Shown: positions 14,462-40,642 of the stretch, in pieces
Position numbering within the stretch: the stretch's first letter is position 1
Layout of the letters: every line of letters starts with the position of its first letter
From: a virus
Direction: 5' to 3' (one strand)
Length of the DNA stretch: 40,642 nt
IMG/VR virus record: IMGVR_UViG_3300036828_000325
Coordinates: 1-40,642 of that record
Made by a program: the position numbers and the translations under genes
The notes under the pieces: model-generated
The model's database searches: none
Told to the model about the DNA's origin: nothing
What the model saw: only the letters and a program-made list of their open reading frames with translations

Positions 14462-15517
14462 ATGGCGTTGCTCGATAATCTCGACCTGTCGCAATATCTG
14501 GCCCCGGCCGGGTTTACGCCTGATCCGGGTTCGCAATTCAACGGGCTCGGTGTTGGGAACACGCCGAACCTGCCGGGGCCTATTGTCGCGCCGCCGCCGC
14601 TTGCCGCGCCCATGCCTCCGCCAGGCGGGCCGCCGCAATCTCCGCCGCCGATGTCGTTGCTCGGGGGTGGGCCGCCGCCGGGCGCCGGGCCGCCCCCTGG
14701 CGCGGCGATGGCGACACAGGCTGATCCGATGTCGGGCGCCCCGCCGCTCGCCGTGCAGTCGTCACCCTCGGCCGGTCTGCCTTTTGGCATGACGTTAAAT
14801 CAGGGCAACGGGGGCGCCGCGCCGCCTGCGGACGATGGATCGCAGGCGCAAGGTCTGCTGACCGGCGGCGGTCCGGACACGTCGCCTCCGCCACGGCCGG
14901 GGCTGCACGGGCTGCTCGACCGGCTGACGGCGACCGACCCGGAAACCGGGCGAACCTTCAATGATCGGCTGATGGCGATAAGCCAGATTATGCAGGGCGA
15001 TACGCCCGGCGCGCAGGCCTTCCTAGAGCGGCAACAAGAGAAGGTCATCAATCAGCGCGCTATCGCCCTGAAGCAACAAATCGCCCAGCGTCAAGCGCAG
15101 GCGTTCTCCAACAATTTCCGTGCGGATGGATCGTTCGATATGGCCGGGTATGCGCGGGACGTGGGGGGCGCGTTCGATCCGGGTGATCTGGCGAAGCTCT
15201 ATGGCGTGGCTGAGCCGAAAATGCAGACGGTGACGACACGGGAAGGCGATGTTTACAGCTTCGATCCGCGAACGGGGGCAACAAAGCTGATTCAAAAAGC
15301 GACGCCTAAGCTCGATGAAAAAGTCATCATGGGGCCGAATGGCCAGCCGATCCCAAACCCGGCAATGGTGAGCTACGACAAACAAGTCAATCAAACGAAG
15401 GAACAGGATGCGGAGTCGCTTGCCGAAGTGCGGGCGGCGGCGGCGGAACGGCATAGGGCGCCCCCGAAAGCTACAAATACGCCCCCGCGCCCGGTCGCGA
15501 CGGGGCGGCATTTCTAG
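14462..15517 (+). CDS. Internal virion protein with Pro-rich N-terminus
   Basis: A 351-residue protein. Residues 35-150 are dominated by Pro, Gly and Ala and are likely disordered. Residues 150-200 form a helix (DRLMAISQIMQGDTPGAQAF, then QQEKVINQRAIALKQQIAQR), followed by a beta segment with TREGDVYSFDPRTGATKLI, and a charged tail. It lies in the ejection-protein cluster, 12 bases after the previous gene. No named family is recognised. Confidence 0.7.
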   Translation: MALLDNLDLSQYLAPAGFTPDPGSQFNGLGVGNTPNLPGPIVAPPPLAAPMPPPGGPPQSPPPMSLLGGGPPPGAGPPPGAAMATQADPMSGAPPLAVQSSPSAGLPFGMTLNQGNGGAAPPADDGSQAQGLLTGGGPDTSPPPRPGLHGLLDRLTATDPETGRTFNDRLMAISQIMQGDTPGAQAFLERQQEKVINQRAIALKQQIAQRQAQAFSNNFRADGSFDMAGYARDVGGAFDPGDLAKLYGVAEPKMQTVTTREGDVYSFDPRTGATKLIQKATPKLDEKVIMGPNGQPIPNPAMVSYDKQVNQTKEQDAESLAEVRAAAAERHRAPPKATNTPPRPVATGRHF

Positions 15518-15526
15518 GAAAAGGCG

Positions 15527-16387
15527 ATGGCTGGCGGCGGGACGAAAAATCAAAATTTCATGGTCGGTTACGAATACGACCTAGGCAACGGCACGACCGG
15601 GGTTTGGAGCGGCAAGAATTTTGTGTCTGCGAATGACTACTTGGCGCAGAAAGCGGGGGGGAAACGGGACTTTAGCGACAATCAAGCGGACTTGAGCCGC
15701 CTTAATGATGCGGCTGCGATGGCGCAGGCGCATCCAAGCGCAACCGGATTTATGGGTGGCATAGAAAGCGGAGAAGGCGCCCCGTCGTGGTCCCCATTTC
15801 ACGGTATTGGTGGAACGCCGGGCTATAACCTGAATGCTAAAATTCAGCCTGTTCGTTCAAATGCGACTCTCAATGCGATCAAGGAAGCAAAAAGCGGTAG
15901 CGCCGAGGGATCGAGTCCTTTTGCTAAAGTGACCAATTACGAGGCGCAGATTCTTCAATCCAAAGACGCGATGCTAGACACTCGACAATCGCAGGATCAA
16001 TTTGTGGATGAGGTCAATGCGGCGAAAACGGCTCTGATCCGCCATACGCCGGGCCTGCATCCGTCAAACCCGATTGATCTTTCGACGGTCGATCCGAACG
16101 ACGTTCCCGAGGGCGCCTATTGGCGGGCGCCGAACGGCACGGTGTATCAGCAACGCAAGGGGTATGCGGGTGGCCAACCCATTGGGGCCGCGTCCGCGCC
16201 GCCGCCTGCGCCTCCGCCGTCTCGGACACAGAAAAACGCGGCGCTCAACGCCATGTCGCAATCAGCGCGGACGGCAACGGCTCTGCAAAACGCTTCGCCC
16301 GCTGCTCCGCCTGCCGTCCCGGCGCCTGCTGGCGCTGCGGCGCCGACAACCATTGATTGGCTGGGGCGCCCGATTTCCGGGGGATGA
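15527..16387 (+). CDS. Internal virion protein with PVRSN / LDTRQSQDQF motif
   Basis: A 286-residue protein preceded by AGGAAAAGG. The middle (about residues 100-175) reads AKIQPVRSNATLNAIKEAKS, then EAQILQSKDAMLDTRQSQDQF, a helical pattern found in virion proteins of many podoviruses that have a stretch like PVRSN-x(n)-L-x-SxxSLDxxQS. It is followed by GAYWRAPNGTVYQQRKGY and an Ala/Pro-rich tail. The N-terminal 90 residues use more A and T than neighbouring genes. Likely part of the ejection complex. Confidence 0.7.
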   Translation: MAGGGTKNQNFMVGYEYDLGNGTTGVWSGKNFVSANDYLAQKAGGKRDFSDNQADLSRLNDAAAMAQAHPSATGFMGGIESGEGAPSWSPFHGIGGTPGYNLNAKIQPVRSNATLNAIKEAKSGSAEGSSPFAKVTNYEAQILQSKDAMLDTRQSQDQFVDEVNAAKTALIRHTPGLHPSNPIDLSTVDPNDVPEGAYWRAPNGTVYQQRKGYAGGQPIGAASAPPPAPPPSRTQKNAALNAMSQSARTATALQNASPAAPPAVPAPAGAAAPTTIDWLGRPISGG

Positions 16388-33651: not shown

Positions 33652-35226
33652 ATGGCATTTGTCCAGTTGAGCGACGAGGCCAAGGGAATCCTTCAGCGTT
33701 ACAAGGACGAGCTTCCCCACTATGCGCGGTCGTGCCTGAAAATCAGGACTAAGGCCGGCGACCTGGCGGCGCTCCAATTCAACGGGGTGCAAGATTACGT
33801 CCACGCGCAGTTAGAGGCGCAACGGCGCAATACGGGGCGTGTGCGCGCGTTGATTTTGAAGGCCAGACAAGAGGGCCTGAGTACCTATATCGGGGCGCGG
33901 TTCTACCATCGGGCGATGTTCTGGCACGGGGTGAGCGTCTACATCCTGACGCATGAACAGGACGCGACCGCCCAGCTTTTCGATATGGTGGATCGGTTTC
34001 ACCGGAACATGCCGCCCGCGCTGCGGCCTGAGACCGGCGCGGCGAACGCCAAGGCGCTAAATTTCTCGGCCATGGGGTCCGGCTATAGCGTCGGAACGGC
34101 CGGGTCAAAGGCGGTCGGCCGGTCGAAAACGATCACGCTTTTCCACGGCTCCGAGGTCGCCCACTGGCCGAATGCGCGGGACCATTTCGCCGGGGTCGTC
34201 CAGGCGGTGCCTGATCTGGACGGAACGGAAATCGTGTTGGAGTCGACGGCGGCGGGGATCGGCGGCGAGTTTCACGAAAGATGGCAAGAGGCGGAGGCGG
34301 GCGCCGGGGACTATCAGGCGATTTTCGTTCCGTGGTTTTGGAGCCTGGATTATCAGCGGGCGCCGCCGGTCGGGTGGGAGCCAAACGAGGAAGAGGAGGA
34401 ACAAGGGCGGCTGTATGGGCTGACGATTCCGCAATTGGTCTGGCGGCGGGCGAAGTTGTTGGAGCTAAAGGACCCGGCGCTTTTTCGGCAGGAATATCCA
34501 AGCTCGGCGGCTGAGGCGTTCCAGGCCACGGGGCATGACTCGTTTATCGATTCGATGCTGGTGCTCCAGGCGCGCAAGCGGACCTGTGAGGGTATCGGGA
34601 GCCTGATTGTCGGAGTCGATCCGGCGCGGTTCGGGGATGATGGGTTCTGCTGCTGCTGGCGGCGCGGGCGTCACGTCGAAAAGGTCGAGCGGCGATACAA
34701 GCTCGATACGATCCAGGGCGCCAATTGGGTCCGGTCGATAGTCGAGCGGGACAACCCGGCGAAGGTGTTTATCGATGTCGGCGGCTCGGGCGCCGGGGTG
34801 GTCGATCTGCTCCACGATTGGGGCGAGCCGTGGTCGAAAATCTGCGAGGGGGTCAACTTCGGCGGGGCGCCGCATCAACCGACGCGCACGGGCGCCAGGG
34901 GCGAACTGATTCCAGGGCCTCGCAATAGGCGCGCGGAAATGTGGATGGCGCTGAAGGATTGGCTAGCCGATGTCGGCGGTGCGGACATTCCGGACGATGA
35001 CGCCTTGCACGCGGATTTGGTCTGTCCTGGCTACAAATATGACGCGCGCCAATTCGTGGTGCTGGAGTCGAAAGAGGATATCCGCAAGCGCGGGCTCCGG
35101 TCGCCCGATGGCGGCGACGCGCTGGCGTTGACGCTGGCGGCGCCGGTCGTGGCGAAAAGTGAGGGCGGCGACCGTTACCGGCGCCGCCCTTGGGGCAGTC
35201 TTCTCGATGATATTTGGGGACGCTAG
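33652..35226 (+). CDS. terL: Terminase large subunit
   Basis: A 524-residue packaging ATPase/nuclease. The ATPase part has a deviant Walker A, K70-ARQEGLST78, Walker B ITLFHGSE (161-168) with E168, and the coupling motif LEST (196-199). The RNase H-like nuclease has D323 in LIVGVDPARFGDDG, D375 in VFIDVGGSGAG and D489 in SPDGGDALALTL. It would bind portal and the small subunit, pump DNA and cut concatemers. Length and motifs are complete. It ends the plus-strand block. Confidence 0.95.
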   Translation: MAFVQLSDEAKGILQRYKDELPHYARSCLKIRTKAGDLAALQFNGVQDYVHAQLEAQRRNTGRVRALILKARQEGLSTYIGARFYHRAMFWHGVSVYILTHEQDATAQLFDMVDRFHRNMPPALRPETGAANAKALNFSAMGSGYSVGTAGSKAVGRSKTITLFHGSEVAHWPNARDHFAGVVQAVPDLDGTEIVLESTAAGIGGEFHERWQEAEAGAGDYQAIFVPWFWSLDYQRAPPVGWEPNEEEEEQGRLYGLTIPQLVWRRAKLLELKDPALFRQEYPSSAAEAFQATGHDSFIDSMLVLQARKRTCEGIGSLIVGVDPARFGDDGFCCCWRRGRHVEKVERRYKLDTIQGANWVRSIVERDNPAKVFIDVGGSGAGVVDLLHDWGEPWSKICEGVNFGGAPHQPTRTGARGELIPGPRNRRAEMWMALKDWLADVGGADIPDDDALHADLVCPGYKYDARQFVVLESKEDIRKRGLRSPDGGDALALTLAAPVVAKSEGGDRYRRRPWGSLLDDIWGR

Positions 35227-35280: not shown

Positions 35281-35601
35281 TTAGGTCGGGGCGGCGCCCG
35301 AGGAACATTGATACTCAACTGTGACCTGCACCCGCATACAACCGTATTGGTTGCTGAATAGGCATTGCCGCGTGACGCCGCCGAAGGCTTCGGCGTCCTT
35401 GTATCCCCAGGCGAGGCAACGCGCCTTAGCTGTTTCGTGGGCGGCGGCTGGGTCAACAATCGGCTTTTCGAAGGCGCCGTAAGCGAACGCGAGTTTCACC
35501 ACGCCATCGGATCGGCTGCCGCCGATGGCCTGCATGGTCTCGGCGGTAGCGCACGCGCTCAAGAGCGCGCAGGCGGCAAAGATTGCGATGATTTTGTGCA
35601 T
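35281..35601 (-). CDS. YecR-like lipoprotein
   Basis: A 106-residue protein with a lipoprotein signal: MHKIIAIFAACALLSACATA, lipobox LSAC, so the mature protein would be anchored to a membrane by a lipidated Cys18. The mature part matches YecR-like proteins: GGSRSDGVVKLAFAYGAFEK, ARCLAWGYKDAEAFGG and RVQVTVEYQC. The ATG at 35601 is preferred to one seven codons upstream because it places the signal peptide at the start. Phage lipoproteins often block superinfection or alter the host surface (moron-type role); this is inference. It is the last gene of the minus block. Confidence 0.85.
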   Translation of the reverse strand: MHKIIAIFAACALLSACATAETMQAIGGSRSDGVVKLAFAYGAFEKPIVDPAAAHETAKARCLAWGYKDAEAFGGVTRQCLFSNQYGCMRVQVTVEYQCSSGAAPT

Positions 35602-35666
35602 TAGAGAGTCCCCTATTCCCATTGTCCCGGTTACGCGACTGTAGCGGGTTCGTCAAAGCGGTTTCG

Positions 35667-35996
35667 TTAGCGGCGCCTGCGGTTCCTGTCGGGCGATTTC
35701 CAGGGCGCCGGGGCTTCGAGTCCGGCGGCGGCCGTTTGGATAGGCTCGGCCGCCGCAAGGGCCTCTGGCGGGCTTTCCTGGCGGCGGGCGGCCCGGTCCA
35801 GGCGGTTCGCCTCCTTGCGCTCGGCGGCGATGTAGCCAAGGGCCACCACGGCGGGGCCAGGGATCGGGGCGGCGCTGGTTTCCCAACGGCGGACCTGTCG
35901 GCCCTGGTCGCGGCCTTCAAGTTGAAGGAGTCGGCCAAGCTCGGCGGCGCTGAGGCCTAGCCATTGGCGAAGGGATTGCAGTTCGGCGCCGGTCAC
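35667..35996 (-). CDS. HTH DNA-binding protein
   Basis: A 109-residue protein from GTG 35996, chosen because AAGGAGA lies 9 bases before it. It begins with an XRE-like helix-turn-helix, TGAELQSLRQWLGLSAAELG, RLLQLEGRDQGRQVRRWETS, then IPGPAVVALGYIAAERKEAN, in the pattern of plasmid- and phage-type DNA-binding regulators. The C-terminus is Ala/Pro-rich and basic. It could regulate the early minus-strand operon in which it lies. Confidence 0.75.
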   Translation of the reverse strand: MTGAELQSLRQWLGLSAAELGRLLQLEGRDQGRQVRRWETSAAPIPGPAVVALGYIAAERKEANRLDRAARRQESPPEALAAAEPIQTAAAGLEAPAPWKSPDRNRRRR

Positions 35997-36000
35997 GGGC

Positions 36001-36279
36001 TTAGGTCTCCTTCGGGGCGATGGCTTCAAGGTCGTTGTATTCGTTCATGGCGTTGACGAGGGCGCGGGCGAACGACTCTTGGTCGGCGTCGGTCGTGCGC
36101 CACGCTTCGCCTCGTTTGGGGCGCGCGCGCATCGGGATCACAAGCACGGGCGCGTCGTCGCCTTCGTCGTCCAGGCCCATGATAATCATTGAGCCGTCAT
36201 TATGGCGATGGGGCTGGAGTCCACGGTCGCGTGTCGGGACAAGGGCGATGGCGTAGGGGCCTTTATAGTTCGGGTGCAT
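36001..36279 (-). CDS. Hypothetical protein
   Basis: A 92-residue protein. It begins MHPNYKGPYAIALVPTRDRG, has a strand pair SMIIMGLDDEGDDAPVLVIP and an acidic helical end FARALVNAMNEYNDLEAIAP. GGAG is about 8 bases before the ATG. It lies between two genes with gaps of 3-4 bases. No family is recognised. Confidence 0.7.
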   Translation of the reverse strand: MHPNYKGPYAIALVPTRDRGLQPHRHNDGSMIIMGLDDEGDDAPVLVIPMRARPKRGEAWRTTDADQESFARALVNAMNEYNDLEAIAPKET

Positions 36280-36282
36280 CGG

Positions 36283-36750
36283 TTAGGACTCCAGTTCGGG
36301 TTGCGGCCCGGCCTTGTTCAAGGCCTGGGCGATCAAGGCGACGTGCGGGCCGTGGCGAATGGACTCGGCCGTGTTCTCGTTGGTGAAGTCGAGGAAGAGG
36401 GCGTTTAGGGCTTTCCACATATCCGGGGCCGCTTCCTTCAGTTGACGGCGGCGGGCGATGCGGGCGGCTTCGGCGGCCTTCTCGGCGTTGCGCTTGGCCT
36501 TCTGCTCCAGTTCAAAGCGTTGACCGGTGCGGGCGAGGTGGCTGCGATAGCGGCCTAACATCAGGTTGAGCTTTGCGCGGGTGCGGCGCTTGTTCTCGTC
36601 GCCGCGCTGGAAGTAGCTGGATCGGACTCCGGTGGGCGTAACTTTGCCGTCGTCTTCGATAAAGACGAGTTCCCCGGCCCATGTCGGCTCTAGGCCGCTC
36701 ATGTCGCCTTTGAAGCCTAGGGCGGCTTCGACTCGGACTTCGTAGGGCAT
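36283..36750 (-). CDS. Hypothetical protein with basic coiled coil
   Basis: A 155-residue protein. The N-terminal part (VEAALGFKGDMSGLEPTWAG, FIEDDGKVTPTGVRSSYFQR) is mixed, and residues 60-110 form a long basic helix (ELEQKAKRNAEKAAEAARIA) likely to coil. Leader element A (36763-36836) is directly upstream on the minus strand, with AAGGAG before the start. Function unknown. Confidence 0.7.
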   Translation of the reverse strand: MPYEVRVEAALGFKGDMSGLEPTWAGELVFIEDDGKVTPTGVRSSYFQRGDENKRRTRAKLNLMLGRYRSHLARTGQRFELEQKAKRNAEKAAEAARIARRRQLKEAAPDMWKALNALFLDFTNENTAESIRHGPHVALIAQALNKAGPQPELES

Positions 36751-36762
36751 AGCGTGCGGTCT

Positions 36763-36836
36763 CCTTGGTCGGTGGTTCCTACGCCTTCAGGCCCGCCACG
36801 CTTGCGCGTTCGGGCCTTCGGGCGCTAGGGCGCGAT
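36763..36836 (-). promoter_or_regulatory. Structured leader RNA, copy A
   Basis: On the minus strand the RNA reads GCGC-YCTA-GCGC (short hairpin), CCGA, then AGGCCCG-AA-CGC-GCAA-GCG-TGG-CGGGCCT (outer 7-bp stem, internal loop, inner 3-bp stem with GNRA loop), then GAAGGCGTAGGAACCACCG and ACCAAGGAG just before the start of the gene at 36283-36750. Copies B, C and D are at 37461-37531, 38360-38434 and 39313-39376. Confidence 0.8.
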
Positions 36837-36846
36837 GGGCTGGCGG

Positions 36847-37230
36847 CTAGAAATTAGGCTCGGAAAAGTCCGGGTCCTGTAGGTTGTCGATCCATTCGGG
36901 CCGATCCCCGATTTCTACTTCTGGCGCCTCGAAAGTTTCACCCAAGGCGTCGGCTAACTCGCGCAGGCGGTTTTTGAATTCGTCGTAAATCTGGCCGCGC
37001 TCGCCTTCCTGCCATTTCTCGGATTTTTCGTCATAGTAGGACTCGGCGTCGTTGGCCGCGTCTTCCATGATCGCGCAGGCCTCGTTCTGGGCCTCGGCGA
37101 ATTTCTCCAGCAAGGCGGCGGCTTCGGTGGCGAAGGTGTCGGCCAGGGTCAACAATTCGTCAAAGGCTTCGCCCGCGTTGCAGGCATGAACGGAAAGTAG
37201 GGTGAGGTCGGCTTGGGTGAGTTTCAGCAC
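36847..37230 (-). CDS. Acidic hypothetical protein
   Basis: A 127-residue strongly acidic helical protein, MLKLTQADLTLLSVHACNAG, with long Glu/Ala-rich helices (FATEAAALLEKFAEAQNEAC, ESYYDEKSEKWQEGERGQIY) and an acidic tail. AAGGAGG lies 8 bases before the GTG start. Small acidic early proteins in phages often mimic DNA or bind host enzymes; here this is only a suggestion from composition. Confidence 0.7.
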   Translation of the reverse strand: MLKLTQADLTLLSVHACNAGEAFDELLTLADTFATEAAALLEKFAEAQNEACAIMEDAANDAESYYDEKSEKWQEGERGQIYDEFKNRLRELADALGETFEAPEVEIGDRPEWIDNLQDPDFSEPNF

Positions 37231-37233
37231 GGG

Positions 37234-37449
37234 TTAGGCCTCCTTGGGGGTCATGAGGGCGAGGGCGCGAGCGCGGAGGTCGTAGGGATCGGGGCGTCCG
37301 GCGAGGCCAAGCGCGTCCATGGCTGCGAGCAAGGCGGTTTCCGTGTCGTTGTACCCGGCGTGTGCCTGCATCACGCGAGTCATCTGCTGAATCACGGTCA
37401 AGGTGTGCAGCGATTTCGCCACGGGGGTTGCGGGGGTGGGAAGGGCCAT
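37234..37449 (-). CDS. Hypothetical protein
   Basis: A 71-residue helical protein, MALPTPATPVAKSLHTLTVI, QQMTRVMQAHAGYNDTETAL, ending ALMTPKEA. It starts downstream of leader copy B, with AAGGAG about 10 bases before the ATG, and ends 3 bases before the GTG of the next gene, with which it forms a pair. A longer frame upstream is not supported. No family is recognised. Confidence 0.65.
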   Translation of the reverse strand: MALPTPATPVAKSLHTLTVIQQMTRVMQAHAGYNDTETALLAAMDALGLAGRPDPYDLRARALALMTPKEA

Positions 37450-37460
37450 TGTCGGGAGTC

Positions 37461-37531
37461 TCCTTGGTCGGTTGCATGCCTTCAGGCCCGCCACGCTTTC
37501 GCGCTCGGGCCTTCGGGCGCTAGAGCGCGAT
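37461..37531 (-). promoter_or_regulatory. Structured leader RNA, copy B
   Basis: Minus-strand RNA: GCGC-TCTA-GCGC, then AGGCCCG-AG-CGC-GAAA-GCG-TGG-CGGGCCT, GAAGGC, and ACCAAGGAG before the gene at 37234-37449. The inner loop is GAAA where copy A has GCAA, both GNRA. On the plus strand the outer arms are 37484-37490 and 37506-37512. Confidence 0.8.
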
Positions 37532-37541
37532 GCGGCGGCGG

Positions 37542-37775
37542 TTAGCGGGCGGTTGCCCAAGCTAAGGCTTGTTCCTTCGTCTTGTGCGGGCAAGCGGTGC
37601 GGGTGGCGCGGCCGGTGTCCACGTGAAAGCGCGCGTCGCGGGCGGTGTTGGCGCTGACTTCGGCGCTCCAGGCCTCGTAAAAGGTCCAAAGGTCGTTGGC
37701 GTCGGCGAAGGTGGCGAGGGCGCGGCTGCGGCCGGTCCAGTCGGAAAGGACAAGGGCGAAGGGAAGGGTGAACAT
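37542..37775 (-). CDS. Hypothetical protein
   Basis: A 77-residue protein starting MFTLPFALVLSDWTGRSRAL, with TFADANDLWTFYEAWSAEVS and RFHVDTGRATRTACPHKTKE. It appears to be a small mixed alpha/beta protein. It follows the gene at 37788 by 12 bases and ends just before leader copy B. No function is recognised. Confidence 0.65.
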   Translation of the reverse strand: MFTLPFALVLSDWTGRSRALATFADANDLWTFYEAWSAEVSANTARDARFHVDTGRATRTACPHKTKEQALAWATAR

Positions 37776-37787
37776 GTGATTCCGATC

Positions 37788-38348
37788 CTAGAAGATGCGC
37801 GGGAAGGTGGCGATGGCGTTGCGCCCTGCGGGCGTAATGCCGCCATTTGCTTTGCAGTAGCCAAAGGCGTTCAAGCTGACCAACGCCATATCGAAGGCGC
37901 CCGCGTCCACGCCATGGCGGCGGGCCTCGTCGCGGCGGGCGCGGGGGATCAGGCCGTCCAGGCACGCCAACACCACGCGTTCGGCGTGTTCAAGCTCGGG
38001 TGTGTCGGCCTGAGGAAGGAACGGCGCCACGTCGGCGGCGCGGACGAAAAAGGTCACGCCAGAGTCGCGCCCCTGGAACGTCGATTGGCGGGCGATCACG
38101 ACTCCAGCCGGGATCGGGATGCAGCGGTCGCGCTGGCCGAAGTCGAACGGATCGGCGGCGGGCGTTCCGATGCTGACGCTATCGGCAAGGCGGATGGCGC
38201 TGAACAGGTCGCGCGAACCGCCATCCCATAGACCGGCGCCTGCCGGGATGGTGACGCTCTCGCAAATCACGGCGCTGAACGTGCGCCCGGCGAAGTGGCG
38301 TTTCAGGGCGGCGGGGACCTGGGCGGGGGTGAGGTGGATTTCGGTCAT
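37788..38348 (-). CDS. Conserved-type hypothetical phage protein
   Basis: A 186-residue protein. It begins MTEIHLTPAQVPAALKRHFA and GRTFSAVICESVTIPAGAGL with WDGGSRDLFSAIRLADS, a pattern seen in early-region proteins of other proteobacterial phages and of unknown role. The second half is helical (RVVLACLDGLIPRARRDEAR). It is preceded by leader copy C with an AAGGA site. Confidence 0.7.
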   Translation of the reverse strand: MTEIHLTPAQVPAALKRHFAGRTFSAVICESVTIPAGAGLWDGGSRDLFSAIRLADSVSIGTPAADPFDFGQRDRCIPIPAGVVIARQSTFQGRDSGVTFFVRAADVAPFLPQADTPELEHAERVVLACLDGLIPRARRDEARRHGVDAGAFDMALVSLNAFGYCKANGGITPAGRNAIATFPRIF

Positions 38349-38359
38349 GGGAGTCGGTG

Positions 38360-38434
38360 TCCTTGGTCGGTGGTTTCTACGCCTTCAGGCCCGCCAGCGT
38401 TTCCGCTTCGGGCCTTCGGGCGCTAGAGCGCGAT
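38360..38434 (-). promoter_or_regulatory. Structured leader RNA, copy C
   Basis: Minus-strand RNA: GCGC-TCTA-GCGC, then AGGCCCG-AA-GCG-GAAA-CGC-TGG-CGGGCCT. The inner stem is GCG/CGC instead of CGC/GCG in the other copies, a double change on both sides that keeps pairing. It precedes the gene at 37788-38348. Plus-strand outer arms: 38387-38393 and 38409-38415. Confidence 0.8.
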
Positions 38435-38444
38435 GTGAGGGAGG

Positions 38445-38624
38445 TTAGCGGGTGCGGCGTTGGGCAATTCCCCACGCCTTCAGGCGTTCGATTGGATAGG
38501 CGTTATTCGCGGCGCCGACGGCGATGGCTTCGGCCGCGCTTGGCGCCTGAACGGTGAAGAGGTAGCGCGTGGCGCCGTTCTTCAGGGTGAGGTGCAGTTG
38601 GTAACGCTTGGGTTCGAGGGTCAT
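38445..38624 (-). CDS. Small beta-rich protein
   Basis: A 59-residue protein, MTLEPKRYQLHLTLKNGATR, YLFTVQAPSAAEAIAVGAAN, NAYPIERLKAWGIAQRRTR. The strand-turn-strand start followed by a SAAEAI helix resembles small phage proteins with a beta-beta-alpha fold. The ATG is set by CCAAGGA upstream. A hairpin-less relic of the leader element (38625-38661) lies directly before it. Confidence 0.7.
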   Translation of the reverse strand: MTLEPKRYQLHLTLKNGATRYLFTVQAPSAAEAIAVGAANNAYPIERLKAWGIAQRRTR

Positions 38625-38661
38625 TTGGGTCTGTCCTTGGTCTGGTGTGATCTGAGGGAGG
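38625..38661 (-). promoter_or_regulatory. Leader element relic lacking the hairpins
   Basis: The plus strand reads TGTCCTTGGTCTGGTG and directly TGATCTGAGGGAGGTTAG. Copy C has the same two flanks (TGTCCTTGGTCGGTGG and CGATGTGAGGGAGGTTAG) but with the hairpin block of about 45 bases between them. The structured core therefore looks cleanly absent or inserted. It precedes the gene at 38445-38624. Confidence 0.6.
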
Positions 38662-38880
38662 TTAGAGGCGAACCCCTGCCCAACCGTTGCAGGCGTCGGC
38701 GCCGAGGGCGATCCGGCGTTCGGTTTCGCGGCTCCAGCGTTCGGCCTGATAGGTCCACCACTCGACGGCGGCGCCGAATTGGTCGCCACGGTCGGCAAGC
38801 TCGGCGGCCTTGGCGTGGCAACGGGCGATCTGCTTCTCGACGGCGCGGCGCACGGTCTCGATGTCCTGGGGGCGCATCAT
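38662..38880 (-). CDS. Hypothetical protein
   Basis: A 72-residue helical protein, MMRPQDIETVRRAVEKQIAR, AVEWWTYQAERWSRETERRI, then ALGADACNGWAGVRL. It starts 3 bases after the stop of the gene at 38884, so the two are probably coupled. No family is recognised. Confidence 0.7.
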   Translation of the reverse strand: MMRPQDIETVRRAVEKQIARCHAKAAELADRGDQFGAAVEWWTYQAERWSRETERRIALGADACNGWAGVRL

Positions 38881-38883
38881 GGC

Positions 38884-39279
38884 TTAGGCCTTCACGGTGA
38901 CGATATCGGCGTCGATCCAGACGGCGAGGCGGTTGGCGAACCATTCGACGGCGAACCAAACCAATTCGCCCGAAGTCTTAGGGGCGAACCATTCGCCGAT
39001 TTCGTCGTGGTACTCGTCCATGGCGGTGTCGATGCAGTCGAACCAAAGGGCGAATTTTTCGGCGATGTCGGCGGTGTAGATCAGGCCGGGAGGGGCGGAG
39101 CATCCCGCGCAATTGGTTTCTTCCAGACGGCGGACCACGTTGCGGATCACGTCGGCGTCGGTCTCGGCGCCGTAGTCGGCGCCGTCAATCGCCCAATCGA
39201 TCAGAGCGGCGCAAATGGCGTTGTTGTTGTCGAATTGCTCATGCAGGACGGCGAGAACGGGGGCGGTGTCGATGGTCAT
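38884..39279 (-). CDS. Acidic, Trp-rich hypothetical protein
   Basis: A 131-residue acidic protein: MTIDTAPVLAVLHEQFDNNN, AICAALIDWAIDGADYGAET, a CAGC pair in ETNCAGCSAPPGLIYTADIA, and two aromatic helices (EKFALWFDCIDTAMDEYHDE; ELVWFAVEWFANRLAVW). ATG 39279 is chosen with GAAGG 8 bases before it; a TTG five codons upstream is less likely. Leader copy D lies upstream. Its acidic and compact character is compatible with a host-takeover protein, but no evidence is direct. Confidence 0.7.
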   Translation of the reverse strand: MTIDTAPVLAVLHEQFDNNNAICAALIDWAIDGADYGAETDADVIRNVVRRLEETNCAGCSAPPGLIYTADIAEKFALWFDCIDTAMDEYHDEIGEWFAPKTSGELVWFAVEWFANRLAVWIDADIVTVKA

Positions 39280-39312
39280 TGTTTCAGCCTTCAAGGTCGG
39301 CGCCGTTGTGGC

Positions 39313-39376
39313 GCTTCTACGCCTTCAGGCCCGCCACGCTTTTCTGCGCTCGGGCCTTGGGCGGGTTCTCCGCGAT
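39313..39376 (-). promoter_or_regulatory. Structured leader RNA, copy D
   Basis: Minus-strand RNA: GCGG-AGAAC-CCGC (the first hairpin with changed but paired arms), then AGGCCCG-AG-CGC-AGAAAA-GCG-TGG-CGGGCCT. The outer stem is identical to copies A-C; the inner loop is larger. It precedes the gene at 38884-39279, here about 40 bases further from the start. Plus-strand outer arms: 39327-39333 and 39351-39357. Confidence 0.75.
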
Positions 39377-39386
39377 GTGAAGCCGG

Positions 39387-39518
39387 TTAGCGGTTGACGG
39401 CGCGGACTCCGTAGTCGCCGCCGAGGGTGTGGTGTAGGGCGCGAGCCGTGCGGCGAGCCTCTTTCAGGTCGTTGTAGTAGAGGCCAAGGAGTCGGCCGTT
39501 GTGGGTGAGAGCGAACAT
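39387..39518 (-). CDS. 43-residue hypothetical protein
   Basis: A small frame between leader copy D and the first gene of the block. It reads MFALTHNGRLLGLYYNDLKE then ARRTARALHHTLGGDYGVRA and VNR, a plausible small alpha/beta protein. AAAGG lies about 9 bases upstream. Its stop is in the conserved CCGCTAACC context that also stands before leader copies B and C. Confidence 0.6.
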   Translation of the reverse strand: MFALTHNGRLLGLYYNDLKEARRTARALHHTLGGDYGVRAVNR

Positions 39519-39548
39519 GGGGATCAGCCTTTGAAGAGTTGTTGTTGG

Positions 39549-39740
39549 TTAGTGGTATTCGGCGCCGCAATCGCAACCGACTTGTTCCAGTTGGTAATCG
39601 GAGCAAGTGCAGTTGGCGGAACGGAACGGACGGAGGCTTTCGATCAGCGCGGTATACTCGGCGCATTCGGCGTCGAACTGCGCTTTATGCCAAGCGCGGT
39701 GTTCGCGCTCGATTTCTTCTAGGATTTCCTCGTCGGTCAT
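39549..39740 (-). CDS. Small acidic protein with Cys-rich tail
   Basis: A 63-residue protein, first gene after the early promoter. It begins MTDEEILEEIEREHRAWHKA and ends SANCTCSDYQLEQVGCDCGAEYH, with four cysteines (CxC and CxC) and a terminal His that could bind a metal. GGGAGGG lies about 9 bases before the ATG at 39740, which decides the start against an in-frame codon 24 residues upstream that overlaps the promoter. Confidence 0.75.
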   Translation of the reverse strand: MTDEEILEEIEREHRAWHKAQFDAECAEYTALIESLRPFRSANCTCSDYQLEQVGCDCGAEYH

Positions 39741-39776: not shown

Positions 39777-39805
39777 TATATACGCCTTCAGGGCGTAGGA
39801 TACAA
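39777..39805 (-). promoter_or_regulatory. Probable early promoter with operator dyad
   Basis: On the minus strand TTGTAT (39800-39805) and TATATA (39777-39782) are exactly 17 bp apart. The spacer contains TACGCC-CTGAA-GGCGTA (39781-39797), a perfect 6-bp dyad that overlaps the -10 box and could be an operator. The first gene starts about 37 bases downstream. The dyad shares TACGCCTTCAGG (plus strand) with the leader elements. Confidence 0.6.
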
Positions 39806-40183: not shown

Positions 40184-40564
40184 ATGAAAGAGAAACACGT
40201 CGAGTCTGTAGCGCCTCGGGCGCCCGACCCGAAAGCCGGGAAGCTCTCGACGGCGGAGCAAGCGCAGATAGCCGCCTTCGGCCGCGATGTCTGGAACCGC
40301 CAAGGCGATGGGGACCTAACGGATAGCCTCGGGCGCTGGTGGGCCTTCGGGATCGCCCGCAACCCGCTTGTTGCGCTCTATATCTCCGTGGGCGGTCCGT
40401 GGGATGGCAAGATATCCGTTCCGTATCAAGCGGTTGGGCAAGCCTCCATCGGCGCCACGGCGACGAGTCCTATCCGTGCGGCGGTGGTGATCCTCGATGG
40501 CCTCGCGCCTCTGCCAGGCCAGCGCCAGCCCGAAGAACAGCGTTCATCGAACGGGGTTCGGTGA
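40184..40564 (+). CDS. Hypothetical junction-spanning protein
   Basis: A 126-residue protein from ATG 40184 (MKEKHVESVAPRAPDPKAGK); an in-frame TTG at 40148 lies in the recurrent element and is less likely. The middle is helical (LSTAEQAQIAAFGRDVWNRQ) and followed by strands WWAFGIARNPLVALYISVGG and QASIGATATSPIRAAVVILD. The end is polar. It is isolated, just after a recurrent element, with its 3' end inside the 14-bp array. No family is recognised. A role at the array is only a guess from position. Confidence 0.7.
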   Translation: MKEKHVESVAPRAPDPKAGKLSTAEQAQIAAFGRDVWNRQGDGDLTDSLGRWWAFGIARNPLVALYISVGGPWDGKISVPYQAVGQASIGATATSPIRAAVVILDGLAPLPGQRQPEEQRSSNGVR

Positions 40565-40642
40565 ACAATGTTCGGCGACCAGGGTTCGGGGAACGCCGTT
40601 CGCCGGGAGGGTCGGGGGGGACTTAATCCGAACCCCCATCCC
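40390..40642. repeat. Terminal redundancy, right copy
   Basis: Repeat of bases 1-253 with one silent difference at 40516. See the left copy. Confidence 0.95.
40528..40611. repeat. 14-bp repeat array, second appearance
   Basis: The same array as 139-222, present again through the terminal redundancy: GTTC at 40542, 40556, 40570, 40584 and 40598. It lies about 370 bases after recurrent element copy 4. Confidence 0.85.

Follow-up and report, generated by a model that had tools for sequence, protein, structure and literature searches.

What does a hairpin-forming element do when it recurs in four gaps between the small genes of a virus? The question is raised by IMG/VR record IMGVR_UViG_3300036828_000325, a complete-looking virus record of 40.6 kb (G000 in our collection) that was analysed over its whole length of 40,642 nucleotides, hereafter the window. 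It carries integrase, primase, terL and portal genes; the element lies in an operon of small genes delimited by gene calling (35281–39740, minus strand), which is convergent with terL (33652–35226, plus strand) and for which an early timing, putative as it is, is plausible. We find that the element is a new RNA family, absent from the catalogues searched and of a known general kind, and we tentatively read it as a putative intercistronic signal for the processing and 3' capping of mRNA.

A preliminary description of the locus had reported four minus-strand gaps sharing one structure. The four copies are indeed there, each of 59–61 nt and built on one common sequence plan. From 5' to 3' the element consists of CAU, a first hairpin of 4 bp (H1), a linker CC(G)A, a second hairpin (H2) and a conserved tail (U)GAAGGCGU. 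H2 comprises an outer stem of 7 bp, an asymmetric internal loop with one nucleotide on the 5' side (usually A) facing GG on the 3' side, and an inner stem of 4 bp closed by a purine-U (R-U) pair and capped mostly by a GNRA loop. The stems are those previously given, except that the inner one had been counted as 3 bp: it has an additional closing pair, variably A-U or G-U, so that the inner stems of copies A to D read ACGC/GCGT, GCGC/GCGT, AGCG/CGCT and GCGC/GCGT respectively. Copy A (36779–36837, minus) has the H1 GCGC/GCGC, the outer H2 stem AGGCCCG/CGGGCCT, the internal loop A/GG, a GCAA loop and the tail GAAGGCGTAG. Copy B (37474–37532, minus), with a GAAA loop, lies upstream of a 71-aa gene conserved in the phage group. 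In copy C (38377–38435, minus; GAAA loop) the inner stem is inverted, and copy D (39317–39377, minus) has the H1 GCGG/CCGC and a 6-nt loop, AGAAAA. All four start 9 nt after a stop codon, that of the genes 36847–37230, 37542–37775, 38445–38624 and 39387–39518 for A, B, C and D respectively.

Relatives were gathered by pattern scans of IMG/VR, by protein-based scans and with a covariance model (R1) built from seven copies. After removal of overlapping loci we obtained 40 copies in 17 related IMG/VR phages; the signal thus grew from 4 to 40 copies with the covariation kept. All carriers belong to one lineage, having terL, portal, primase and other genes in common with the window, and those whose record covers terL are at least 68% identical to the window in this gene. 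The terL relatives below about 66% identity lack the element, as do some of the relatives at 68–72% (L084, L085, L086, L088 and L089). Relatives at about 60% are located in genomes of Aquamicrobium, Aureimonas, Kaistia and Afipia, among others, and the terL of the nearest isolate is 42% identical.

Evidence that the element acts as RNA comes from 38 structurally aligned copies (alignment A8). Standard pairs occupy 99.1% of the pair cells, as against 79.1% when the partners are shuffled, and 11 of the 15 pairs show double-sided changes. The covariation score is 0.452, compared with 0.118±0.014 after shuffling and with at most 0.048 for any slide of the partners; the shuffle does not take relatedness out of account; the slide control preserves it and is clear. 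Selection on RNA structure, first suggested from four copies, is therefore far above chance on 38. H1 is paired in 100% of the cells and three of its four pairs covary, with the forms GCGC/GCGC, GCGG/CCGC, GCGA/UCGC and GGGG/CCCC. The outer stem AGGCCCG/CGGGCCT is replaced by AGGCGGG/CCCGCCT in L067 and L069, by AGCCCGG/CCGGGCT in L078 and L163 and by GGCTCG/CGAGCC in L087, and at least six versions of the inner stem are seen (ACGC/GCGU, GCGC/GCGU, AGCG/CGCU, GCCG/CGGU, ACCC/GGGU and GCCU/AGGU). Since for most pairs the variants are seen in several different phages, they do not go back to one inherited event. Some unpaired nucleotides are conserved as well (n = 38 copies): the 5' bulged A in 30/38, the 3' GG in 35/38, the GNRA loop in 26/38 and GGCGU in 33/38.

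Energy minimisation of single copies often favours, at the expense of H1, a further helix beneath H2 formed by CGCC(C) with (G)GGCG (P0). This helix shows no covariation, with 78.7% of pairs formed versus 77.8% after shuffling. H1 is thus supported, and P0 is left as a possible alternative pairing. A bistable switch between P0 and H1, energetically plausible, was rejected because P0 does not covary.

The same data bear on the nature of the selected molecule. In 24 of the 38 copies the inner stem is closed by a G-U pair, which would read C-A on the opposite strand; this indicates that the RNA of the operon strand is under selection rather than a DNA palindrome. All 40 copies, moreover, lie between genes on the sense strand of the single small-gene operon convergent with terL, as the preliminary description had it for the window. 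This strict strand bias, the G-U pairs and the three covarying helices make it very unlikely that we are dealing with a DNA-level repeat, i.e. a recombination linker between gene cassettes, a stoperator-like repressor site or a mobile palindrome. Such a repeat would fit the exchange of gene content between elements from phage to phage, and a 12-mer, CCTGAAGGCGTA, is also found within the promoter palindrome of the window (TACGCCctgaaGGCGTA, 39781–39797, minus; TACGCC-N5-GGCGTA). This palindrome is probably the operator of a phage repressor. At the matching place of the operon promoter, however, the relatives have TACGTC-N5-GACGTA, which differs from the element tail GGCGT; the two are thus separate sites, and a stoperator or repressor site was rejected on this ground. 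Nor was the element found outside the small-gene operon: in the phage records searched whole, no model match outside the operon was convincing. A host repeat of the REP type (repetitive extragenic palindrome) was likewise discarded. The exact element pattern is absent from the GTDB species genomes searched, and no hit came from searching 385 genomes, all of the class to which an Aquamicrobium genome belongs, with the covariance model, although this was a weak test, with 14 candidates scored per genome and no positive control.

We then considered where in the operon the element sits. In 36 of the 40 copies it starts 8–13 nt past the upstream stop codon; the exceptions are one copy of L065 (16 nt), one of L169 (35 nt) and two of L069 with an enlarged first hairpin. 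In these last two (15174–15250 and 16075–16151, about 47 nt past the stop) H1 is swapped for a long hairpin, CCGGAACCATCCC...GGGATGGTTTACGG, common to both. The distance to the next start codon is variable, mostly 24–45 nt. In toeprints of ribosomes with a stop codon in the A site, the front edge is about 9–10 nt past the stop. Starting at the edge of the terminating ribosome, the element is thus as near to the upstream gene as folding permits. That each copy ends at a ribosome binding site (RBS), as was first stated, is true only loosely: in the window 24–37 nt separate the end of the element from the next ATG, and it is this spacer, outside the structure, that contains the RBS.

Nor is the element a leader RNA controlling each early gene, as it had been called. 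The 5' leader, from promoter to first gene, carries no element in 14 of the 14 phages with a readable operon start; the copies are anchored to the upstream stop, and most junctions have none, there being one copy per one to few genes. The name should be replaced by intercistronic, stop-codon-anchored RNA. In the window each stretch of the operon marked off by the copies holds two or three genes, and the junctions of 3–37 nt inside it are free of the element; in other phages the segment between two elements can be a single gene. The junction 38625–38661 (minus) has no element and has the same flanks, TAACCTCCCTCA and GACCAAGGACA, as 38349–38444, the gap that holds copy C. The 59-aa gene between these two junctions looks inserted, with the spacing from stop to element kept.

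The spacing of 8–10 nt also led us to consider stop-codon readthrough stimulated by the structure. This was rejected: in copies A and B a ribosome continuing in frame would run into the UGA that the element conserves, and by eye the frame does not join the next gene. An intrinsic terminator was rejected as well since there is no U tract: in the copies listed, what comes after H2 is UGAAGGCGU or a closely similar sequence.

Are hairpins behind stop codons peculiar to the carriers? In the element-lacking terL relatives (L084–L160 and L194–L200, all operons surveyed) strong stems occur in 88 of 231 same-strand gaps, compared with 12.3 expected by shuffling, and 37 of these 88 start 6–14 nt after the stop. 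One example is a perfect GNRA hairpin, GGCGCGGC(GAAA)GCCGCGCC, at stop+8 in the same operon of L085 and L089. Given how frequent such stems are, hairpins behind stops appear a general habit of these phages, of which the element is an elaborate, sequence-conserved version confined to one lineage; stop-proximal hairpins may even be a general phage trait. Intercistronic stabiliser hairpins, such as the REP sequence of malE-malF and the hairpin of the puf operon, likewise stand just behind a stop codon inside an operon. They are not known to preserve an internal loop and a tail among copies that have diverged. A plain 3' barrier, a hairpin that halts exonucleases or insulates the translation of neighbours with neither specific cleavage nor a partner, and whose family likeness reflects copying within one phage lineage, would agree with the simpler hairpins common at equal stop distance in related phages and with the clean presence or absence of the element between similar flanks (copy C against 38625–38661). 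It would not need the loop, closing pair and tail that are kept across strongly diverged copies, and we regard it as quite unlikely.

What fits best is a signal of segment boundaries, on account of the anchoring to stops, the absence from leaders, the presence of more than one copy per operon at boundaries of segments, and the conserved unpaired nucleotides. We therefore give a probability of about 40% to the reading as an intercistronic mRNA-processing and 3'-capping signal; among the functions first suggested, mRNA cleavage or stability is the one that the anatomy favours. H1 and H2 would fold once the ribosome reaches the upstream stop codon. H2 would then be recognised by an endonuclease of the host, RNase III being the most likely one, and the cut would fall at H2 or immediately 3' of it, within the unpaired conserved tail UGAAGGCGU. 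H1-H2 would stay on the upstream segment as an exonuclease-resistant 3' end, and the downstream segment would gain a new 5' end, often with a further hairpin (H3) after it, much as at the native 5' end of the operon transcript. We infer that the operon transcript would in this way be converted into pieces, each holding one to few genes and having a stability of its own, with consequences for expression.

H3 is optional. In copy D (39300–39314, minus) it reads GCGCC(ACAAC)GGCGC, stands before the RBS and is individually weak (p=0.050). H3-like hairpins, unrelated in sequence and also individually weak, follow many to most of the other copies, and many to most operon leaders have one, again individually weak, near the predicted transcript start. 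In G007 the leader of the first gene resembles the 3' tail of the element with H3 and has no H1-H2, which indicates that this structure is not needed for translation start there.

Phage T7 provides the parallel for the processing signal. Its early RNase III sites (R0.5, R1, R1.1 and R1.3) are, like the element, compact hairpins in gaps between early genes, repeated along one operon, and the element has the T7-type trait of a sense-strand hairpin in an intercistronic gap. Refolded, the T7 intercistronic hairpins at the positions of these sites have 9–13 bp and short loops, and start 7, 13, 38 and 24 nt after the stops, so that two of the four are close behind it (7 and 13 nt). R1.1, AAGGUCAUUC(GCAA)GAGUGGCCUU, i.e. 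AAGG...GCAA...GUGGCCU, is of nearly one plan with copy A (AAGGCCCGAACGC GCAA GCGUGGCGGGCCU). The T7 sites differ in having no H1, continuous stems devoid of the A/GG loop and an unfixed spacing to the stop (7–38 nt); besides, cleavage is proven there and only predicted for the element. RNase III of the alphaproteobacterium S. meliloti cuts T7 R1.1 (PMC6121014).

In favour of a processing signal we thus count the covariation of H1 and of the outer and inner stems of H2, the restriction of all copies to the sense strand, the G-U closing pairs, the fixed stop spacing as opposed to the variable distance to the start, the leaders that lack the element but have an H3-like hairpin, the plain stop-proximal hairpins of relatives and the likeness to T7. 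Several points weigh on the other side. The T7-type duplex is irregular and of about two helical turns, and the covariation-supported H2, 11 bp plus an internal loop, is short for RNase III; P0 (CGCC/GGCG) would lengthen H2 and is favoured by energy, but it does not covary and competes with H1. The A/GG loop, the R-U pair and the GGCGU tail are conserved beyond the needs of a generic duplex substrate, and H3 is individually weak. Finally, the covariance model gives no hit on the T7 sites, so that the likeness is one of analogy, not homology, and we do not file the element as a T7-type RNase III site.

Because a specific partner could recognise the conserved loop and tail, two other explanations stay live, both of them less probable than processing. 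The first is antitermination, or an anti-Rho RNA, of the put/nut type: nascent H1-H2 would bind RNA polymerase, directly or via a factor, and so prevent pauses and termination in the operon's untranslated gaps. The part of the polymerase to which put binds is the beta' zinc domain. The put RNA of phage HK022, of about 70 nt with two stem-loops, suppresses intrinsic and Rho termination (PMC9378689). The element resembles putL and putR in its 60–70 nt, its two adjacent stem-loops with an internal bulge or loop and its place in a phage early region (PMC9378689); it is stop-proximal, where Rho would load, and its conserved internal loop suggests a specific partner. The put sites, however, are near the promoter, one per early operon, while the element is absent from leaders and promoter-proximal positions and present in up to four copies per operon, which a processive mechanism does not need. 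In the single-copy phages L075 and L078 the copy is mid-operon before the 71-aa gene, not the most useful place for a processive antiterminator, and since this mid-operon copy is the invariant one it argues against a purely processive mechanism. The covariance model finds no similarity in HK022 (22000–40700). On balance antitermination seems rather unlikely.

The second is an RNA operator, in which a phage or host protein would bind the A/GG loop, the R-U pair and the GNRA hairpin and thereby repress or activate translation, or protect the mRNA, at several junctions simultaneously. Hairpins recognised by proteins typically combine, as here, conserved unpaired nucleotides with stems that covary freely, and copies within a phage are more alike (0.77 vs 0.65), a likeness confounded with phage relatedness. 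But the RBS is outside the structure at a variable distance, the position being fixed to the upstream stop, and no candidate binder emerges. The 71-aa protein (37234–37449, minus; MALPT..TPVAKSLHTLTV..) was considered as the cognate factor. Its gene is present in all element-bearing records covering that region, preceded by the element directly or with one gene between. The family (A9) is one of small three-helix proteins, highly conserved across diverse phages, with the pattern MALPT..TPVAKSLHTLTVxQQV...LGLAGRPDPYGLRARAL. Its AlphaFold model (pLDDT 82) has no fold match in the PDB and the protein no family match, and homologues also occur in element-free phages; it was thus rejected in this role. 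We hold an operator to be about as doubtful as antitermination. It is likewise conceivable, at similarly modest odds, that the element represents a new regulatory RNA class, in which a dedicated protein, or else RNA polymerase, would read the conserved A/GG loop with its R-U pair and GNRA cap directly behind the terminating ribosome. The end of translation of one gene would then be coupled to the fate of the remaining operon, for instance through a locally acting antiterminator.

The statement that no named RNA motif fits agrees with Rfam 15, which gives no match at the gathering threshold; the sole match up to E = 10, at E 1.5, is a fluoride fragment of chance level in another part of the region. 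Among isolated phages (INPHARED) no match to the element is convincing, only weak short ones being found. The SAS/ESAS repeats of cluster K mycobacteriophages are also conserved repeated elements at gene boundaries, in one orientation and with non-structural genes only; about half of them have an inverted repeat, they are conserved by gene family and their function is unknown (PMC3203893). SAS, 13 bp in length, is anchored to the start codon, unlike the element, which is anchored to the upstream stop and displays RNA covariation; the covariance model has no match in TM4.

Other features of the window are given for completeness. Neither PHROG nor Pfam assigns the genes of the element operon above cut-off; there is a sub-threshold Pfam match to DUF7222 at 38884–39279 (minus; E 1.4e-4, 22.5 bits against a cut-off of 27). 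A 25-bit model match antisense to terL (35155–35209, minus) is outside the gaps and was judged to be chance or a terminator-like hairpin. At this place, in the 3' end of terL, a GC-rich hairpin with a GTAA loop is followed on the operon strand by TCACTTTT; it may be the terminator of the small-gene operon. The ends of the record (1–253 and 40390–40642) form a near-repeat of about 250 bases, the first 100 of which are identical, consistent with a terminal repeat with some divergence.

The element is thus a well-supported new RNA family of an uncultivated phage lineage, placed where the leading edge of a ribosome halted at the stop codon would be, and its length of 59 nt suits it to direct testing in vitro. 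Should it prove an antiterminator or a protein site, phages would have one more regulatory RNA, and a new one. Should it prove a processing signal, another phage lineage would have arrived independently at T7's way of cutting the early message in the gaps between genes, and strong selection acting on a compact RNA would be able to maintain it.

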